A program made the position numbers and the translations under genes. From a virus, in IMG/VR virus record IMGVR_UViG_3300028800_000145, positions 1-46,526 of that record: a stretch of 46,526 nucleotides of DNA; one strand, 5' to 3'. Below are positions 596 to 45,471 of the stretch, in pieces. Under the pieces are notes generated by a model. It was given only the letters and a program-made list of their open reading frames with translations. It was not told where the DNA came from and ran no database searches. The stretch's first letter is position 1. Each line of letters opens with the position of its first letter.

Positions 596-631
596 TTGAC
601 ACATTCTGCGTGATTGTGTACATTGCGTACA
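596..631 (+). promoter_or_regulatory. Early promoter with operator-like inverted repeat
   Basis: TTGACA (596-601), a 17-base spacer and TACATT (619-624) form a near-consensus sigma-70 promoter. The predicted transcription start, about 7 bases after the -10, falls on the A of the ATG at 631, so the mRNA would be leaderless. A perfect inverted repeat, TGTAC-ATTGC-GTACA (617-631), overlaps the -10 and the start, as expected for a repressor operator. No repressor gene is recognised nearby; the minus-strand gene diverging from here is one candidate. Confidence 0.7.
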
Positions 632-2047: not shown

Positions 2048-2220
2048 GGAAAGTCAAGTGCATCTGTGGCGAAGCTGGCAAGGATGGAACCCAAGCACAT
2101 ACAACTCAAAGCAAGCGCCGGTTCCGCTTTGTTCGCTGGCCGAAGAAAATCATTGACTGCTGCACCAACCACGCTTGGAATTACGCTCAGAGTTCGGCGT
2201 TTGAGGAAGTTCGCAAGTGA
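2044..2220 (+). CDS. Small basic cysteine-containing protein
   Basis: The product is 58 residues, coupled by ATGA to the gene before it. CIC near residue 6 and a CC pair near 39 with a following His may form a metal site. A strongly basic middle (SKRRFRFVRWPKK) suggests nucleic-acid contact. Its stop overlaps a GTG start of a tiny membrane protein. No family recognised. Confidence 0.65.
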   Translation: MRKVKCICGEAGKDGTQAHTTQSKRRFRFVRWPKKIIDCCTNHAWNYAQSSAFEEVRK

Positions 2221-2318
2221 TCCCCCTCTCCGCATTGGCGGTAGCCCTCGGACTCGGCACCCTCGCATGGGCCGTGCCTGACCCGTTCCTGCGCTGGGCC
2301 TGCGTGGGTGAGTTGTGA
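2217..2318 (+). CDS. Tiny membrane peptide
   Basis: The product is 33 residues from a GTG overlapping the previous stop. Residues 3-20 form one hydrophobic helix, ending before PDP. Its TGA overlaps the GTG start of the M50-like protease (GTGA). The tight coupling suggests it is made together with the protease and may sit beside it in the membrane. Confidence 0.5.
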   Translation: MIPLSALAVALGLGTLAWAVPDPFLRWACVGEL

Positions 2319-2677
2319 AACTACAAGCGTTCCTAATCGCGGTGATGGTCGGCAGCACGTTGGTTCACGAGCTGGGGCACTGTGCTGCCGGATGGTGGTT
2401 CGGCTATCGTGTGGTCGGGCTGCGCTGGATTCCGCCTGGAGTTCACCTGCGGGGGCCACGCGGCAAGTACGGTGTCGCCCCTCGCGTAGAATGCCTGGCC
2501 GTGGCGCTGGGAGGCCCGTGCGCGACGATTGCAACCACAGCCGTAGTTTGGAGCCTTGGATTGCCATTTTGCGCGTTCTTGTGGGCGCTGTGCGGATTGT
2601 CGGAATTAGCTATCCCGTGGGTTAATGGAACTGATTGGAATCAAATCATAACGGCCTTATTCAAGGCAGAAAGGTAA
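2315..2677 (+). CDS. Mini M50 (site-2-protease-like) membrane metalloprotease
   Basis: The product is 120 residues. A first membrane helix carries HELGH at residues 18-22, the HExxH zinc motif of M50 intramembrane proteases. Two further hydrophobic stretches follow (about 60-80 and 83-100). PWVNGTDWNQ (about 101-110), with Asp107, stands where the family has its third zinc ligand in an N/D-G motif. M50 enzymes cut membrane-bound substrates within the bilayer. This copy is far shorter than standard S2P and has no PDZ domain. It starts at a GTG overlapping the tiny membrane peptide and is followed 4 bases later by the Flp pilin gene, so the pilin or the host pilus system may be its target (inference). 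Confidence 0.75.
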   Translation: MKLQAFLIAVMVGSTLVHELGHCAAGWWFGYRVVGLRWIPPGVHLRGPRGKYGVAPRVECLAVALGGPCATIATTAVVWSLGLPFCAFLWALCGLSELAIPWVNGTDWNQIITALFKAER

Positions 2678-2681
2678 CACA

Positions 2682-2846
2682 ATGAAAACGCTACTTCGCA
2701 ATCTGATTCATGAGGATTCCGGCCAAGACCTGATCGAGTACGCCCTGATCGCTTTGCTGGTCGCTGTGGGCTGCATTGCCGGCATGGGCACGCTGGCGAC
2801 GAAGATCAACGCCGAGTTTGTCAGCATCGCTGGCAAGCTGACCTAA
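2682..2846 (+). CDS. flp: Flp/Tad type IVb pilin
   Basis: The product is 54 residues with all marks of a Flp major pilin. There is a short charged leader ending in Gly14, then QDLIEY, an exact match to the G/xxxxEY prepilin-peptidase site with Glu+5 and Tyr+6. A single hydrophobic helix and a short Gly/Ser/Lys C-terminal end follow. Flp pilins polymerise into Tad pili for adhesion after cutting by TadV/CpaA-type peptidases. No tad assembly genes occur here, so it could only act through the host machinery. It follows the M50-like protease closely in the early operon. A pilin on a phage could alter or block the host's pili (inference). Confidence 0.9.
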   Translation: MKTLLRNLIHEDSGQDLIEYALIALLVAVGCIAGMGTLATKINAEFVSIAGKLT

Positions 2847-5531: not shown

Positions 5532-5903
5532 TTACAAACAGGATGCCCCTACAGCGCGTTGTGGGCCGTGTTTTAGCCCTTTCTGCCTCGCGGTCAGGTC
5601 TGAGGCCACCGGCTTCCGATAGCAACGCTCTAGCGCCCTCTGGAACGAATTGCGGTGTATCCCGATCCGTCTAGCCGCAGCGCACTTATTCCCCTGCTCG
5701 ATTACCAGCGCCCGTCTCAGGTACTCGGCCTCGATCATCCGGCGGAGCTGCTGGTGCTTAACTCCCTTGCCTTCCATCTCAGCCACAAAGACTTCCACAA
5801 ATTCCACAACATTACCGCGACGGGATACGCGGGTCAGTAGCGGCTCGTCGGGCGAGGCCCAGGCGTCGGAAGGGGTTTGATTACCGTAGGGCTGTGCGCT
5901 CAT
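5532..5903 (-). CDS. Fis-type helix-turn-helix protein
   Basis: The product is 123 residues. The middle and C-terminal part (YLRRALVIEQGNKCAAARRI, then GIHRNSFQRALER) matches the C-terminal DNA-binding helices of Fis/NtrC-type proteins. In these the Gly-Asn-...-Ala-Ala-Arg turn precedes the recognition helix. It has no ATPase or receiver domain. It is the last gene of the minus-strand replication operon and starts in an ATGA overlap with the methyltransferase stop. A role in organising phage DNA or in regulation is likely but unproven. Confidence 0.75.
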   Translation of the reverse strand: MSAQPYGNQTPSDAWASPDEPLLTRVSRRGNVVEFVEVFVAEMEGKGVKHQQLRRMIEAEYLRRALVIEQGNKCAAARRIGIHRNSFQRALERCYRKPVASDLTARQKGLKHGPQRAVGASCL

Positions 5904-6586
5904 AGACTTAGCTGCTCAGGTTTGGATTCAAACAGGATGGGCTGGACGTCGATCTCAGCCATCCTTCGCCGTGCTATCTCGCAGTACTCGTGGCTGATCT
6001 CGAAGCCGAGGAAGTGCCGCCCTAGCTTCTTGGCGGCTACTAACGTGGTTCCGCTGCCGCAGAAGGGGTCGAGGATGGTTCCCTCAATCTCGAATCTCTC
6101 TATTAGGGTAAGAAATTGCCTAAACGATTGACCCCATTTGTGATAATGCTTATCGTCTTCGTTTTGTGTGGCATTTTCGAAGACATCGTATTTCCACGGT
6201 TTGAACTTTTGGCTCGAGGATGTTCCGTAAATCAGAAGCGGTTTCCACCCCGTAGAAATCCCTATCGGCCAAATCGGAGAGTTCGCCATCGGCATCCTGA
6301 AGTTTCCCATCCAACGGTATTCCCAAGCGGCTCGAGCAATGTCGCTCATGACACGCGGCAACCAAACCTGCCCACTCATAACCAACAGCCACGCCCCGTC
6401 TCGAGCCGCCCGCCGGCACAGCGGCCACGCATCTCTCAGGAAGTCTAGATATTCCTTCGGATAGGGAGGGTCTGCCACGACCGCATCCACACACCCATCC
6501 GGCAGCGCCTTCATCAGCTCAAGGCAGTCGCCTTCTACTACCGAGCAGCACGGGTATGGGCCGATCATGCGATCACAGGCGCTCAT
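5900..6586 (-). CDS. DNA N4/N6 (amino) methyltransferase
   Basis: The product is 228 residues from the ATG at 6586 (GGAGG just upstream; the longer frame to 6673 is the neighbour's shadow). ADPPYPKEY is motif IV, the catalytic D/N-P-P-Y of amino methyltransferases. DPFCGSGTTLVAAKKLGR near the end is the SAM-binding motif I. Motif IV before motif I gives the beta-class order. It would methylate adenine N6 or cytosine N4 in DNA, perhaps protecting phage DNA from restriction. No partner nuclease is nearby, so it is an orphan. It overlaps the preceding 47-residue gene by 14 bases. Confidence 0.9.
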   Translation of the reverse strand: MSACDRMIGPYPCCSVVEGDCLELMKALPDGCVDAVVADPPYPKEYLDFLRDAWPLCRRAARDGAWLLVMSGQVWLPRVMSDIARAAWEYRWMGNFRMPMANSPIWPIGISTGWKPLLIYGTSSSQKFKPWKYDVFENATQNEDDKHYHKWGQSFRQFLTLIERFEIEGTILDPFCGSGTTLVAAKKLGRHFLGFEISHEYCEIARRRMAEIDVQPILFESKPEQLSL

Positions 6587-6716
6587 AGTCCTCCATGTTC
6601 TCGCGACGCGCCCAGCTCTCAGGGTCGAGGTCAGCATCTCTGTCTGACGGCAGCAGATCGCCAAAAATATCAATCAGCACGCCGTTGGGGTCCGGTTCTG
6701 CGTCTGGGCGGTTCAT
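6573..6716 (-). CDS. Small acidic hypothetical protein
   Basis: The product is 47 residues from an ATG in an ATGA overlap with the upstream gene. It is acidic (many Asp/Glu), with one hydrophobic strand (GVLIDIFGDLL). Its last codons contain the ribosome site of the methyltransferase, so the two are coupled. No family recognised. A role as methyltransferase partner or DNA mimic would be speculation. Confidence 0.6.
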   Translation of the reverse strand: MNRPDAEPDPNGVLIDIFGDLLPSDRDADLDPESWARRENMEDYERL

Positions 6717-8432: not shown

Positions 8433-9056
8433 CTAGATCGATTTCATACCGCCCGCCAGATCATCGGCGGGTTTAGTTTGTTCCATAAGCCGTTCGGCGT
8501 AATCGGCGACACAGGCGGATAGTTCGGGAGGGATTGTGGCTGTATTGGCCGCCCTGCGATGCGGGGAAATTCTGTCCAGGTTGGCGTGGTAGTGCTCTGT
8601 GCTCTGGTCACCAAACCCTTTGTTTATCCCCTGCGGCATAATCGCCGGAACTCCGTTGCCCCACAGGTAGAACGGCCCGCAGTGATGCACCGCATTGCCC
8701 ACGAACTGCTGTGCTGCCCGCACGTTTTCCATGACATACTGAACGCCGGCCGATTCGCACAGCATCCGCGTATGGTTAAACAGCTTGATTCCCAGCTCTG
8801 GATAGGGCGGATTCGGGTGGAAGTGCTTCATCCCGTGGACGCTGAACTGCTCGCATGGGCTGCTGGCGCAGATAAAGTCAAATCCCTGCTCCGCTATCCA
8901 ATCAGGCGTGATCGTGAGCACGTCAGCCTGGATGAACTCGCATCCCTGCGGAATCTCAGGCGGCAAGGTCAGGTCGATGCCCACCACTTCCCATCCGCGA
9001 GCGGCAAATACGCGGCCCCACCCAAATCTGCCAGCGAACAGATCCAGCATCCTCAT
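8433..9056 (-). CDS. DNA cytosine-5 methyltransferase
   Basis: The product is 207 residues, short for the family. It starts with MLDLFAGRFGWGRVF (SAM-binding motif I, F-A-G). Motif II-like VVGIDLT follows, then ASSPCEQFS, which holds the catalytic Cys of motif IV with Ser-Ser-Pro-Cys in place of the usual Pro-Pro-Cys. VMENVRAAQQFVG is motif VI (ENV). The target-recognition part is small, and motifs IX-X are reduced to IPPELSACVADYAERL. It probably methylates phage DNA to escape restriction. It is coupled to the upstream zinc-ribbon gene by ATGA. Confidence 0.85.
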   Translation of the reverse strand: MRMLDLFAGRFGWGRVFAARGWEVVGIDLTLPPEIPQGCEFIQADVLTITPDWIAEQGFDFICASSPCEQFSVHGMKHFHPNPPYPELGIKLFNHTRMLCESAGVQYVMENVRAAQQFVGNAVHHCGPFYLWGNGVPAIMPQGINKGFGDQSTEHYHANLDRISPHRRAANTATIPPELSACVADYAERLMEQTKPADDLAGGMKSI

Positions 9057-9184
9057 CGCTTAACCATCTTTACCATCACATTGTTGACGCCAACAAAGGG
9101 ATGGCCGCAGACAGCACAGTACGGCCAGTGCTTGAGCATCAGCCGCTTACAGGCGGCGCAGCGCGTAATCAGGAACGGAATCAT
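9053..9184 (-). CDS. Zinc-ribbon micro-protein
   Basis: The product is 43 residues. CAAC (about 9-12) and CAVCG (about 26-30) form a two-knuckle zinc ribbon with a Lys/Trp loop between. It is in ATGA overlap with both neighbours. Such ribbons are common next to phage methyltransferases and replication genes. The partner is unknown. Confidence 0.7.
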   Translation of the reverse strand: MIPFLITRCAACKRLMLKHWPYCAVCGHPFVGVNNVMVKMVKR

Positions 9185-9363
9185 AGCTTGGCTAAAGGGT
9201 CGGGTGGCTCAATATTCGGCAGACCGAATACCCGCCTAAGAGGGTTTGGCAGTTGCATACAAGCCTTCTGGAACAGGCGCCTAACTTCCTCGGCATCATC
9301 TAGCCACTTGACGTAAGCCCTCAGCACCTCTAGTTCTTTTTGACTCCTGCTTTTGTTTTCCAT
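9181..9363 (-). CDS. Small helical protein, first gene of the replication operon
   Basis: The product is 60 residues from the ATG at 9363. A basic start is followed by two helices (LRAYVKWLDDAEEVRRLFQKA) and a Pro-rich end. The ribosome site is inside an unusual G-rich run: ten consecutive G residues (C on the plus strand, 9369-9378), then A and four G. Changes in this run could alter translation of the first gene. Family unknown. Confidence 0.65.
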   Translation of the reverse strand: MENKSRSQKELEVLRAYVKWLDDAEEVRRLFQKACMQLPNPLRRVFGLPNIEPPDPLAKL

Positions 9364-9457
9364 TTGCACCCCCCCCCCTCCCCGGTAGCGGTCAGCGGGA
9401 GACATCCGGTACTCCCGCCCCGCCCGGACACGCCGGGTGCGTGCCCTATGGCCCTGA
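9364..9457 (-). promoter_or_regulatory. Structured 5' leader of the replication operon
   Basis: Two strong hairpins precede the first gene: CCCGG...CCGGG (9423-9437) and GCGGGAG...CTCCCGC (9395-9418). The G10 tract containing the ribosome site follows. The leader of about 90 bases is unlike the leaderless promoters elsewhere in this genome and could control translation or early termination. Confidence 0.5.
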
Positions 9458-9485
9458 ATCTTACGCCGATTCCTGTAATCCACAA
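9458..9485 (-). promoter_or_regulatory. Promoter of the replication operon
   Basis: On the minus strand TTGTGG (9485-9480), 16 bases and TAAGAT (9463-9458). The -10 is identical to that of the scaffold-gene promoter at 39758-39763. It drives transcription towards 9363. The -35 is only a partial match. Confidence 0.5.
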
Positions 9486-9512
9486 TAGCCCATGAGTGCC
9501 ATCATTATTTTC

Positions 9513-9546
9513 TTGACGGAACAATTACTATGCGCTTACTATGCGC
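9513..9546 (+). promoter_or_regulatory. Early promoter with tandem 11-base repeat, leaderless start
   Basis: TTGACG (9513-9518), 18 bases and TACTAT (9537-9542). TTACTATGCGC is repeated head to tail at 9525-9535 and 9536-9546, covering spacer and -10. The ATG at 9549 is 7 bases after the -10, the same geometry as the promoter at 596-624, so the transcript should be leaderless. The repeat could be a regulator site. Confidence 0.65.
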
Positions 9547-9548
9547 GT

Positions 9549-9695
9549 ATGGCTGAAAAGAAAATCAGGCGGTGCAAGGCGAGGGGCTGTGACGCCATGT
9601 TCACGCCGAAGGTAAGAACGCAAATCTATCACAGCCCAGCCTGCCGTAACCGGGAGCAGCAACGCAAGCTCCGCCAGAGAGCGAGGATTGCATGA
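9549..9695 (+). CDS. Small zinc-finger protein, leaderless
   Basis: The product is 48 residues. CKARGC near the start and a later Cys in SPACRNR, following a Tyr/His, give the layout of small C-x4-C...C-R zinc fingers with a basic tail (QRKLRQRAR). Such proteins bind nucleic acids and often act as phage regulators. It is the first gene of the recombination block, begins at the predicted transcription start, and is coupled by ATGA to the next gene. Confidence 0.7.
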   Translation: MAEKKIRRCKARGCDAMFTPKVRTQIYHSPACRNREQQRKLRQRARIA

Positions 9696-10012
9696 GCACC
9701 CAAACACTATTCGAGTTGGTTTACGACCTCCAATACGTCAGCTTCAGGACGCAGCGCAATCTCGGCAGCAGCTACCAGTCCTGCGCTCATCCGCTGGCGT
9801 TCGGCGCCGAGGCTGTTGCTTTCGAGGAACGCTACCAGGCCGAGCAATCTCAGGCCGAGCACTGCGAACACGGCGTAGACGCCGATCAGTGCTGGTACTG
9901 CAGCAATCCCGATCCCGAACGTGTCGAGAAATGCACGTACTGTCCGCGCATGGCAACGGTAATCACTGCCAGCGAGATGCCTCTGTGCGATGAGCATGTG
10001 GAGTGGAGATGA
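9692..10012 (+). CDS. Zinc-binding hypothetical protein
   Basis: The product is 106 residues. The N-terminal half is helical and Gln/Ala-rich. The C-terminal half holds CEHG...CWYC, then CTYCPR, then C-x2-H, enough ligands for two zinc sites. Similar CxHG...CxxC patterns occur in short phage DNA-binding proteins. It is coupled to the preceding zinc finger. Function unknown. Confidence 0.7.
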   Translation: MSTQTLFELVYDLQYVSFRTQRNLGSSYQSCAHPLAFGAEAVAFEERYQAEQSQAEHCEHGVDADQCWYCSNPDPERVEKCTYCPRMATVITASEMPLCDEHVEWR

Positions 10013-14540: not shown

Positions 14541-15700
14541 GTGAAACTATTGGCTGCGCTTTCTGCGAGCAGAACTTTGAAGATTACAACGATCTTCGGC
14601 TACACGCTAGCGAAGTACATGCAGACAAACTTAGTCGGCCCGAAGCCTCCCGCCAGGAGCCTGCATCGCCGACCGCTGACTCCACCCAACCCGCCCCACA
14701 GGTTGCACGCACAGAGGACGCAATGACCAGCATCGGTAAACGTGCGATAGAGGCCGATGCCCCCGCCCCACGCGAGAGTGCGGACGATCCCCCGCTCGAC
14801 AAAGAAACTAAAGCTATCCTGCACCTTAAGCACCTTCAGCCGTTCGTAAGCCAAAGAATTTTGGACGATCTGAGAATTGTTCTGCGTGAGTATGCAGCCT
14901 ATCTCGAAGCCCCACGCGAGAGGGCAAGTGAATCAACTAATTCTGTCTATTTAGAGGCGAGGCGGATTTATTGCTGCCATGGGGCGGAATTCGCTAGACC
15001 AACTTTGGAGAAGTGCTGGAAGGAGATTGCCACTCTCGAAGCCAGCCTGCGGGAGTTGCGGGAGGAGAATAAACGGCTGAAGCAAGAACTGGAATTGGCG
15101 GAAGGATACGTAGCAAATGGGCCATTACACGAAGCTATCGAACGAGAGTTAAACGGGCCTCTAGCTCAGTCGGCAGAGCAGCGAACTCATAATTCGCAGG
15201 ACGGTGGTTCGACCCCATCGAGGCCCACCAATCTCACCGCCGAACTCGCCCGCTGCAAAGAGCAGTTGGAAGCCAGCGAGGAATTAACCAAGCAACTTCA
15301 ACTGGCCAAACTACCATGCGGCCACTACGACCGCTATGGCCATACCGAGGACAGGGGCGCTCACATCATATGCCTCGTGTGCGAGTTATCCACATCCCAG
15401 CAGCAGGCAGCGGAGGCGGAAGCTAGGGCCGAGGGGATGCGGGAAATACAATTTATCGTCAACAAAGTAGAGCTTTCGTCGGATGCGGCTGGAGCAATCT
15501 TTGTCATTAAAGGAATCGCGGATAAGGCTCTCTCCCTCCCCGCAACTTCAGCTCTGGCGCTGCACGAAGTACGGACTTTGAGACGTGAGGCCGCAATCGC
15601 TAAGGACTTACATGGCAGCATTGGATCGTGGCTAGAAACTCGCGCTGACGCACTGGAGCGGGCCGCTGGAGAACTTTCGCCTAAGCCGAGGGAGAAATGA
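14537..15700 (+). CDS. C2H2-finger coiled-coil protein with an internal tRNA gene
   Basis: The product is 387 residues. An N-terminal C-x2-C-x12-H-x4-H finger (CAFCEQNF...LHASEVH) is followed by a Pro/Ala linker, then coiled coil (about 165-195, LEASLRELREENKRLKQEL). A second possible zinc site (CGHYDRYG...CLVC) and a helical tail come after. Between them about 25 residues (LAQSAEQRTHN...) are simply the translation of a complete tRNA (15155-15230) lying in frame. The coiled coil resumes after it (LARCKEQLEASEEL). So the tRNA seems to have inserted without breaking the frame, or the gene is two genes joined by it. Function unknown. Confidence 0.65.
   Translation: MSETIGCAFCEQNFEDYNDLRLHASEVHADKLSRPEASRQEPASPTADSTQPAPQVARTEDAMTSIGKRAIEADAPAPRESADDPPLDKETKAILHLKHLQPFVSQRILDDLRIVLREYAAYLEAPRERASESTNSVYLEARRIYCCHGAEFARPTLEKCWKEIATLEASLRELREENKRLKQELELAEGYVANGPLHEAIERELNGPLAQSAEQRTHNSQDGGSTPSRPTNLTAELARCKEQLEASEELTKQLQLAKLPCGHYDRYGHTEDRGAHIICLVCELSTSQQQAAEAEARAEGMREIQFIVNKVELSSDAAGAIFVIKGIADKALSLPATSALALHEVRTLRREAAIAKDLHGSIGSWLETRADALERAAGELSPKPREK
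15155..15230 (+). tRNA. tRNA-Met (CAT) with encoded CCA
   Basis: A full cloverleaf is visible: acceptor GGGCCTC/GAGGCCC (7 bp), D-arm GCTC...GAGC, anticodon stem GCGAA/TTCGC around loop CTCATAA (anticodon CAT), T-arm GGTGG-TTCGACC-CCATC, then ACCA with the CCA encoded. The first base pair is G-C, so it is not an initiator. Elongator Met is most likely, though CAT can also be modified Ile2. It lies in frame inside the 14537-15700 reading frame on the same strand. Confidence 0.93.
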
Positions 15701-17445: not shown

Positions 17446-17480
17446 AAAGGCCGCTTCCTCTCGGTTGCGGCCTTTGTCCA
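17446..17480. terminator. Bidirectional intrinsic terminator
   Basis: AAAGGCCGC...GCGGCCTTT (17446-17475) is a 9-bp perfect stem with a 12-base loop. A T-run follows on each strand: TTTGTCC on plus, TTTTGTG on minus. It sits exactly between the convergent plus-strand block (ending 17441) and the minus-strand late operon (ending 17521). Confidence 0.92.
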
Positions 17481-17520
17481 TTCATCCAAGCTGCGTACCG
17501 CTCTGCGGAGCAGTATAGCA

Positions 17521-44425: not shown

Positions 44426-44665
44426 TCAGTATTCCCCTCCAGCCTCAAGATACGCTTTGGCGGCGTTCCGCTTGCGTTCCTGATGGAAGTCGGAGCGCAG
44501 GAGGTCAGGACGCCCGTAGGGATGACAGACATCTCCGACATCGGCACGGCAGATGGGGCAATCGACGGAGCAGCAGATCACGGGCCAGTCCTTTCGCTTC
44601 TCCAACTTCCAGTACATGATACGGGAAGGGTCGGTGAAGTCCGGTTTTTCCGGGTAGGACTTCAC
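44426..44665 (-). CDS. Zinc-finger protein of the actinophage/soil-phage type
   Basis: The product is 79 residues. CPICRADVGDVC...GRPDLLRSDFHQERKR matches the C-P-x-C-x-A-x-x-G-x-x-C...H-x-x-R layout of a small zinc finger frequent in phages of soil bacteria. It lies between the GroES-like gene (4-base overlap) and the small terminase. A DNA-packaging or regulatory role is possible. Confidence 0.75.
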   Translation of the reverse strand: MKSYPEKPDFTDPSRIMYWKLEKRKDWPVICCSVDCPICRADVGDVCHPYGRPDLLRSDFHQERKRNAAKAYLEAGGEY

Positions 44666-45471
44666 ACCGCCTCCCGCATGAGGTTCAGAACTTCGGCCTC
44701 GCGCATGGTAATCAGGGTTTCGTTTCGCATCGTAAGATGCTGGCCAGCATAACGGGAAAACTGGACTCGATCACCCAACTTGCAGAGAACCGTGTCGTAA
44801 CCAACGGACACCACGATCCCGGTGACGGGCACAGATTGAGCTATCTCGGGAATGATGATGCCCCGGCTCCACCCATTACCGTTGCACGACTCACATCGAA
44901 CCTTACCAGAGGAATAGGGCGTCTCCGATCCCCATCGGACACAGAGGCAGTCGCGGCAGTTGTCTGGCTTGCCGTCGCATCGCTTGCAGGTTTCATCGGT
45001 ATGCCCCTTCCCCTTACAGATGCGGCACGTGTAGACGCTCTCTGTCGTGTCCTGGCGGACGATGATACGGTCGCCAGTGCAGCTGATGTCCTGCTTGGCT
45101 CCCTCTAGCCGGAACCAGCACAACTGCTCACGAGGATTTCGCTTGGTGATCTCGTTCAGGCGAAGGATGGATTCCATTGCGACGTTGAGCCGCTGCTGTA
45201 GTTCAGCACGGGTCGCGGGAGAAGCCTGCGGGTCATCAAATATCTGGGCGCGGGTGATGGATTCCGCCGACTCGCGGAACTCAGGATCGCCCATGATCGG
45301 CTTCTCGGGAATAAGGGTGACGTGGTGCTCGCCGCGCTCGACTGTTACCGTGATCGGTTCCGGCATGGGTTGTAGTTCTGATCGGTTGATGCCAGAGAAG
45401 TCGGCACCTTCGTCGTAAGCGCCCTGCTCAGAGGCTTTGTTGCCGATGATTTCGAGAGATGGTTCAGCCAC
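44662..45471 (-). CDS. GroES-like co-chaperonin with inserted DnaJ-type zinc domain
   Basis: The product is 269 residues from a GTG. After about 130 residues of unrecognised, partly helical N-terminus comes GDRIIVRQD (about 133-141), the first strand of GroES. Four cysteine pairs follow (CRICKGKG 149-156, CKRC 162, CRDC 172, CESCNGNG 193-200), laid out like the DnaJ zinc domain. GroES then resumes: RGIIIPEIAQ (203-212, like the mobile loop's hydrophobic triplet), VTGIVVSVGYDTVLCKLGDRVQFSRYAGQ and ETLITMREAEVLNL. It should bind the host GroEL during capsid folding. The insertion is unusual and lies where GroES meets GroEL. Confidence 0.8.
   Translation of the reverse strand: MAEPSLEIIGNKASEQGAYDEGADFSGINRSELQPMPEPITVTVERGEHHVTLIPEKPIMGDPEFRESAESITRAQIFDDPQASPATRAELQQRLNVAMESILRLNEITKRNPREQLCWFRLEGAKQDISCTGDRIIVRQDTTESVYTCRICKGKGHTDETCKRCDGKPDNCRDCLCVRWGSETPYSSGKVRCESCNGNGWSRGIIIPEIAQSVPVTGIVVSVGYDTVLCKLGDRVQFSRYAGQHLTMRNETLITMREAEVLNLMREAV

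Follow-up and report, generated by a model that had tools for sequence, protein, structure and literature searches.

A Flp/Tad Pilin Gene Paired with a Putative Minimal Site-2 Protease in Two Divergent Tailed Phages

Introduction

We describe a tailed phage in which the gene for a Flp/Tad prepilin directly follows the gene for a putative minimal site-2 protease (S2P), and in which this pair, headed by a small membrane peptide, may serve to modify the Tad pili of an acidobacterial host. Tad pili are widespread adhesive pili, and the soil Acidobacteria are abundant and poorly studied. The reading that we tentatively favor is that the phage would alter adsorption or adhesion by supplying the host Tad pilus with a subunit of its own, and that the protease would cut a host membrane protein of the same pathway.

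Phage-borne Flp pilins have been annotated before; their pairing with a minimal S2P appears to be new. In prophages of Vibrio harveyi, a Flp pilin is annotated as a putative virulence factor (PMC12482185), and in the phiLM21-like prophages of Sinorhizobium meliloti it is given as a COG entry (PMC12429752). These pilins are likewise carried by phages, but the relevant passages of the two papers give no M50 partner and no phage-side mechanism. The open-licence literature searched gave neither a tested function for a phage-borne Flp nor any account of a phage pilin with an intramembrane protease as its partner, and it contained no phage gene shown to act on Tad pili.

The Cassette and Its Phage Genome

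The window analyzed here is the whole 46,526-nucleotide record IMGVR_UViG_3300028800_000145, a complete tailed-phage genome of ~46.4 kb whose contig ends share a 127-base exact overlap. PHROGs matches include terminase, portal or head-tail adaptor, major head, and tail-fibre proteins. The initial annotation placed three open reading frames, for a 33-aa peptide, a HELGH protein, and a pilin, on the plus strand, in agreement with the ORF positions. The features of the region are as follows.

596..624, plus strand: possible sigma-70-type promoter at the start of the plus-strand genes (TTGACA, 17 nt, TACATT)
2217..2318, plus strand: 33-aa single-span membrane peptide; GTG start, stop overlapping the protease start
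2315..2677, plus strand: 120-aa putative minimal site-2 protease (M50); GTG start, HELGH at residues 18-22, putative third ligand D in NGTDW (~residue 107)
2682..2846, plus strand: 54-aa Flp/Tad prepilin; ATG start 4 bases past the protease stop, predicted cleavage G14/Q15 (SG/QDLIEY), one hydrophobic helix
2855..2879, plus strand: 10-bp RNA hairpin just past the pilin stop (z -1.9)

The protease and pilin genes are probably co-transcribed, and the cassette likely lies in an early region. The promoter at the start of the plus-strand genes is only suggestive, given that sigma-70-type matches in the surrounding region are no more numerous than in shuffled sequences. An RNA terminator after the pilin was also considered and rejected: the hairpin is present, without a U-tract. 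Elsewhere in the genome, the C-terminal part (204-264) of a 269-aa protein (44662-45471, minus strand) matches the phage co-chaperonin GroES, and two DNA methyltransferase-like genes (5900-6673 and 8433-9056, both on the minus strand) flank a replication-initiation-like gene.

The same three genes, in identical order, are found in a second phage, IMGVR_UViG_3300028800_000019 (G001, L002), a 47.5-kb genome with phage genes that is also complete by a 127-base overlap. The pilins of the two phages are 81% identical and the proteases ~37%. The peptide of the second phage also has 33 aa and a GTG start and lies at the same place (L002:9566-9667), with weak similarity over a short gapped alignment; the hydropathy of the best 19-residue stretch is 1.9 here and 2.65 in the counterpart. 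Even the 10-bp hairpin recurs after the pilin, with a different sequence (z -3.2). The search for the gene pair thus upheld the coupling of pilin and protease that was initially noted, and this second phage was the only other phage found with the protease. Because the ends overlap, the GC content shows no step at 2-3 kb, and a second complete phage has the same three genes, a chimera with host DNA at 2-3 kb is ruled out, and the phage origin of the locus stands.

Only 9 of the 57 ORFs tested have any tblastn match in the second phage. No match was obtained for the terminase, the portal, or the head and tail-fibre proteins, and homology is undetectable for most tail proteins; the cassette is thus kept while most of the genome is unrecognizable. 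It should be mentioned that the two phages also have exact DNA blocks of 32-107 bases in common (1279-1373, 15242-15273, 15527-15633, and 17476-17513), which sit in or near unidentified genes, the first of them being 95 identical bases. These blocks point to recombination, either of the two phages themselves or of their ancestors, or else to a constrained element; recombination would suggest overlapping hosts. A diversity-generating element at 15-17 kb, suspected from the near-identical islands, was rejected, as no such repeat pair was present.

The Pilin and Its Host

The identification of the 54-aa protein as a Flp pilin is supported by the Pfam profile search, in which it scores 36.2 bits against Flp_Fap (PF04964; cut-off 32.2, E 5e-9). 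Two Tad pilins of solved structure, 8u2b and 8u1k, are also matched by a profile built from the Flps of viral contigs. The short leader ends in SG and is followed by the predicted cleavage site (MKTLLRNLIHEDSG/QDLIEY), the predicted mature N-terminus is QDLIEYALIALL, and the hydrophobic helix has a hydropathy of 2.32 over residues 21-39. The protein therefore resembles known Flp/Tad pilins (PF04964; 8u2b, 8u1k, and the acidobacterial L067) in its short G-ending leader, its DLIEY-like mature start, its single hydrophobic helix, and its lack of a globular domain; what sets it apart is its S2P-core partner and its place in a tailed phage where searches found no pilus machinery.

We compared the phage pilin, one alignment column at a time, with 114 pilins taken from the 80 bacterial loci closest to it. 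All strongly conserved positions are kept, including mature E5, the following Y, L22, and F46, although the GQDL[IV]EY residues carry no independent weight in this comparison because they belonged to the pattern used in the search. Because every strongly conserved host position is kept, the phage pilin looks like an assembly-competent, regular subunit. The initial annotation had considered a dominant-negative pilin; with the conserved positions of the host Flps intact, the sequence gives no support to a defective "poison" pilin and suggests a normal subunit instead.

The nearest bacterial pilins, with up to 72% identity, belong to the Acidobacteriaceae, mostly metagenome-assembled genomes (MAGs) from palsa and bog soils, in keeping with the acidobacterial host proposed initially. 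In two of these loci (L067 and L075), the genes after the pilin are those of an A24 prepilin peptidase of the TadV/CpaA type, confirmed by profile, and of a CpaB-like protein, and L075 also has a CpaC-like gene; the CpaB-like and CpaC-like names were read from the sequences. Profile searches found pilus motors and the A24 peptidase in the host genomes, which carry several Flp genes each, whereas neither a prepilin peptidase (PF01478) nor a TadA/CpaF-type motor (PF00437) was found in either phage. Compared with a complete Tad pilus system, then, the phage holds only the pilin, and the peptidase and motor are in the hosts. The absence of assembly genes and the dependence on host Tad machinery were both part of the initial annotation and agree with these searches: the phage pilin could be processed and assembled only by the host.

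Between the two phages, the pilin genes have a dN of 0.14 and a dS of 0.84, giving a dN/dS of ~0.16, which with 54 codons is a rough estimate only. By this estimate, the pilin is under purifying selection.

The Mini Site-2 Protease

The single protease sequence scores 19.8 bits (E 5e-4) against the M50 family (PF02163), below the cut-off of 27.2, and its membership therefore rests on profile and fold matches. A five-member profile, comprising this protease, its relative in the second phage, and three acidobacterial homologues, matches SpoIVFB (1.4e-10) and MjS2P (1e-8); both matches span the core and take in the region of the third zinc ligand. In the profile, the GSDG of the homologues aligns with the third-zinc-ligand DG of SpoIVFB and MjS2P, and NGTDW stands at the same place here; the structural model is of low confidence in this region, and in the second phage the Asp falls in a gap of the automatic alignment and was placed by hand.

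An AlphaFold model made from three sequences (pLDDT 73, pTM 0.64) places HELGH within a helix at residues 2-28; the second phage has HEAGH. In a Foldseek search, the first two ranks were SpoIVFB (probability 1.00, E 0.03). The eight best structural alignments were all S2Ps (RseP, MjS2P, and SpoIVFB), with Z 7.1-8.7 over 98-114 residues, the next being 5.1. Such Z values are modest for helical proteins, and the fold match is therefore weighed together with the five-member profile match. Taken together, these matches accord with the initial description of the HELGH protein as site-2-protease-like, and we regard the 120-aa protein as a bare S2P core with putative catalysis. It is like SpoIVFB, MjS2P, and RseP in its HExxH helix, its GP-containing second core helix, its putative third-ligand Asp, and its model fold; it differs in consisting of the 120-aa core only, with no PDZ or CBS domain, and in its Pfam score.

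No close relatives of the protease were found in 398 Acidobacteriaceae genomes at E 1e-6, in a search that had no known positive. The same protease alignment finds mini-M50s in Acidobacteriaceae at weaker E. Mini-M50 genes lacking a pilin are present in genomes of Acidobacteriaceae as well as in a stretch resembling a Mu-like prophage (L150, L154, and L155/L159). In L159 (G012:C31), the mini-M50 at ~9.4-9.9 kb lies in the apparent early region of this prophage, which was read from the sequences, in an Acidobacteriaceae MAG.

Flp Pilins in Other Phages

Flp pilins recur in several unrelated phages. A scan of viral contigs for the GQDL[IV]EY motif, together with pilin searches, found them in nine further contigs, and phage genes stand around or near the pilin in four of these. 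In one (G006), the pilin lies between the portal and the head maturation protease, with an M15 peptidase and small hydrophobic ORFs nearby; in a complete genome (G007), it lies beside a glycosyltransferase, with terminase and portal elsewhere in the genome; a helicase and ParB are near the pilin in the third (G009); and in the fourth (G002), it directly precedes a gene reading as DNA polymerase I. The other five contigs may include host or prophage flanks. In the G007 locus (L025), the pilin (~9800-10000, minus strand) runs into the glycosyltransferase (9076-9819, minus strand), possibly a pilin-modifying pair.

A further 33 stretches came from the classical GATAIEY motif, some with phage neighbors, such as PhoH and an exonuclease near the pilin in L039, and terminase and portal in L038. 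GATAIEY-type pilins occur in large viral contigs (L039, 183 kb; L059, 93.7 kb; L041, 77 kb; L045, 147 kb; L038, 54 kb), and L039 and L059 encode an identical 60-aa pilin. Among the isolate phages of INPHARED, tblastn with a hand-made consensus gave no Flp match; the same query finds 75 plasmids.

The protease is not a general partner of phage pilins, as a profile search found an M50 gene in none of the nine contigs. Nor is it the usual partner of host pilins, an idea rejected because, in the 80 closest host loci, no such protease lies within 2.5 kb of a pilin; L075 does have a 165-aa mini-M50, ~3.6 kb upstream of its pilin, and this was taken as chance.

What Might the Cassette Do?

The initial annotation proposed superinfection exclusion, a decoy receptor, or adhesion control as possible roles. 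Because the pilin is retained under selection and looks like a working subunit, entry into the host membrane and the Tad pilus is suggested. The phage prepilin would be cleaved by the TadV/CpaA of its Acidobacteriaceae host, would join the pool of pilins in the inner membrane, and would be built into the Tad pilus, which would then differ in composition, amount, or dynamics. The most plausible outcome would be that pilus-dependent competitor phages fail to adsorb (superinfection exclusion). The S2P core, for its part, may cut pilins or pseudopilins of the host, or else a regulator of the Tad locus that is bound to the membrane, and thereby favor the phage subunit. A Caulobacter phage uses Tad pili as its receptor (PMC11067988), and type IV pili, a frequent target of superinfection exclusion, are blocked by several phages to exclude rivals (PMC11436027); for these reasons, an alteration of the pilus that keeps rivals out seems the most economical reading. 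The proposed outcome, altered pili and the exclusion of rivals, is the same as that of the known inhibitors of type IV pili, namely the PilB ATPase inhibitors and Gp21 of Pseudomonas phages, but these hit the motor or expression, whereas here the phage would supply a subunit (PMC11436027).

Pilus modification is supported by the following observations: (i) the pilin passes the Flp cut-off, keeps its cleavage site and conserved positions, and appears to be under purifying selection; (ii) the cassette is kept in two divergent phages, and Flp pilins recur in unrelated ones; and (iii) the nearest pilins sit in Acidobacteriaceae with an A24 peptidase and motor, and the phages have neither. On the other hand, the protease-pilin pair is known in two phages only, and in the second phage the third ligand is aligned with uncertainty, so that catalysis by its protease is putative. 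The rapid divergence of the protease beside a conserved pilin also argues against the pilin as its tightly co-evolving or main substrate. Finally, the pilin looks normal rather than poisonous, so that extra pilin might simply mean more pili.

The main rival of superinfection exclusion is greater adhesion. Here the extra pilin would raise or sustain Tad pili, infected cells would stick to surfaces or to each other, progeny would reach new hosts, and the protease would relieve a membrane-bound repressor. Consistent with this, the pilin lies within normal host variation at all conserved positions, its gene has a Shine-Dalgarno-like sequence (GAAAGG here, AAAGGAGG in L002), and the hosts have several Flp genes each, so subunit mixing may be normal there; the likely early location of the cassette and a probably short infection cycle would leave little time for such a benefit, and we consider this role rather unlikely. 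We give the same weight to the idea that the two genes are independent. RseP and SpoIVFB act in envelope or sigma-factor pathways, and the S2P core may activate or silence such a pathway in the host, with the pilin as a separate accessory neighbor. Since mini-M50s exist without pilins in the hosts and in the apparent Mu-like prophage, the protease may act on something unrelated, and other phage pilins have no M50; yet the pair, its order, and the leading membrane peptide are all kept in two otherwise very divergent phages.

Two further explanations concern the pilin itself. It might be a captured host gene with no function in the phage, given its 72% identity to a host pilin and the fact that, in amino acids, the phage pilins are barely closer to each other (~80-81%) than the second-phage pilin is to a host pilin (78%). 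Synonymous distance, however, is smaller between the phages (0.84) than between phage and host (1.6-1.8), these relationships being taken from pairwise identity and synonymous distance and not from a tree; this difference, together with the apparent purifying selection and the protease and peptide common to both cassettes, makes idle capture improbable. Less credible still is a membrane-active toxin or lysis-like (holin-like) peptide under the control of the protease. The pilin is indeed a single-span protein beside another small membrane peptide, and the G006 pilin has the M15 peptidase and small hydrophobic ORFs nearby, but a holin would need neither the exact prepilin cleavage motif nor E5 and the other Flp-conserved residues, and the closest relatives are host pilins adjoining TadV.

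Conclusions

A bolder form of pilus modification would be superinfection exclusion by "pilin swap", with the phage pilin fed in, the intramembrane protease of the phage eliminating host pilins or a regulator of the Tad system, and phage Flps forming a general receptor-remodeling class; we hold this extended form to be unlikely. If it is true, phages would remodel host Tad pili by subunit replacement. The pilin-protease cassette and the recurring phage Flps offer directly testable genes for the rewiring of host surfaces by phages of soil bacteria.
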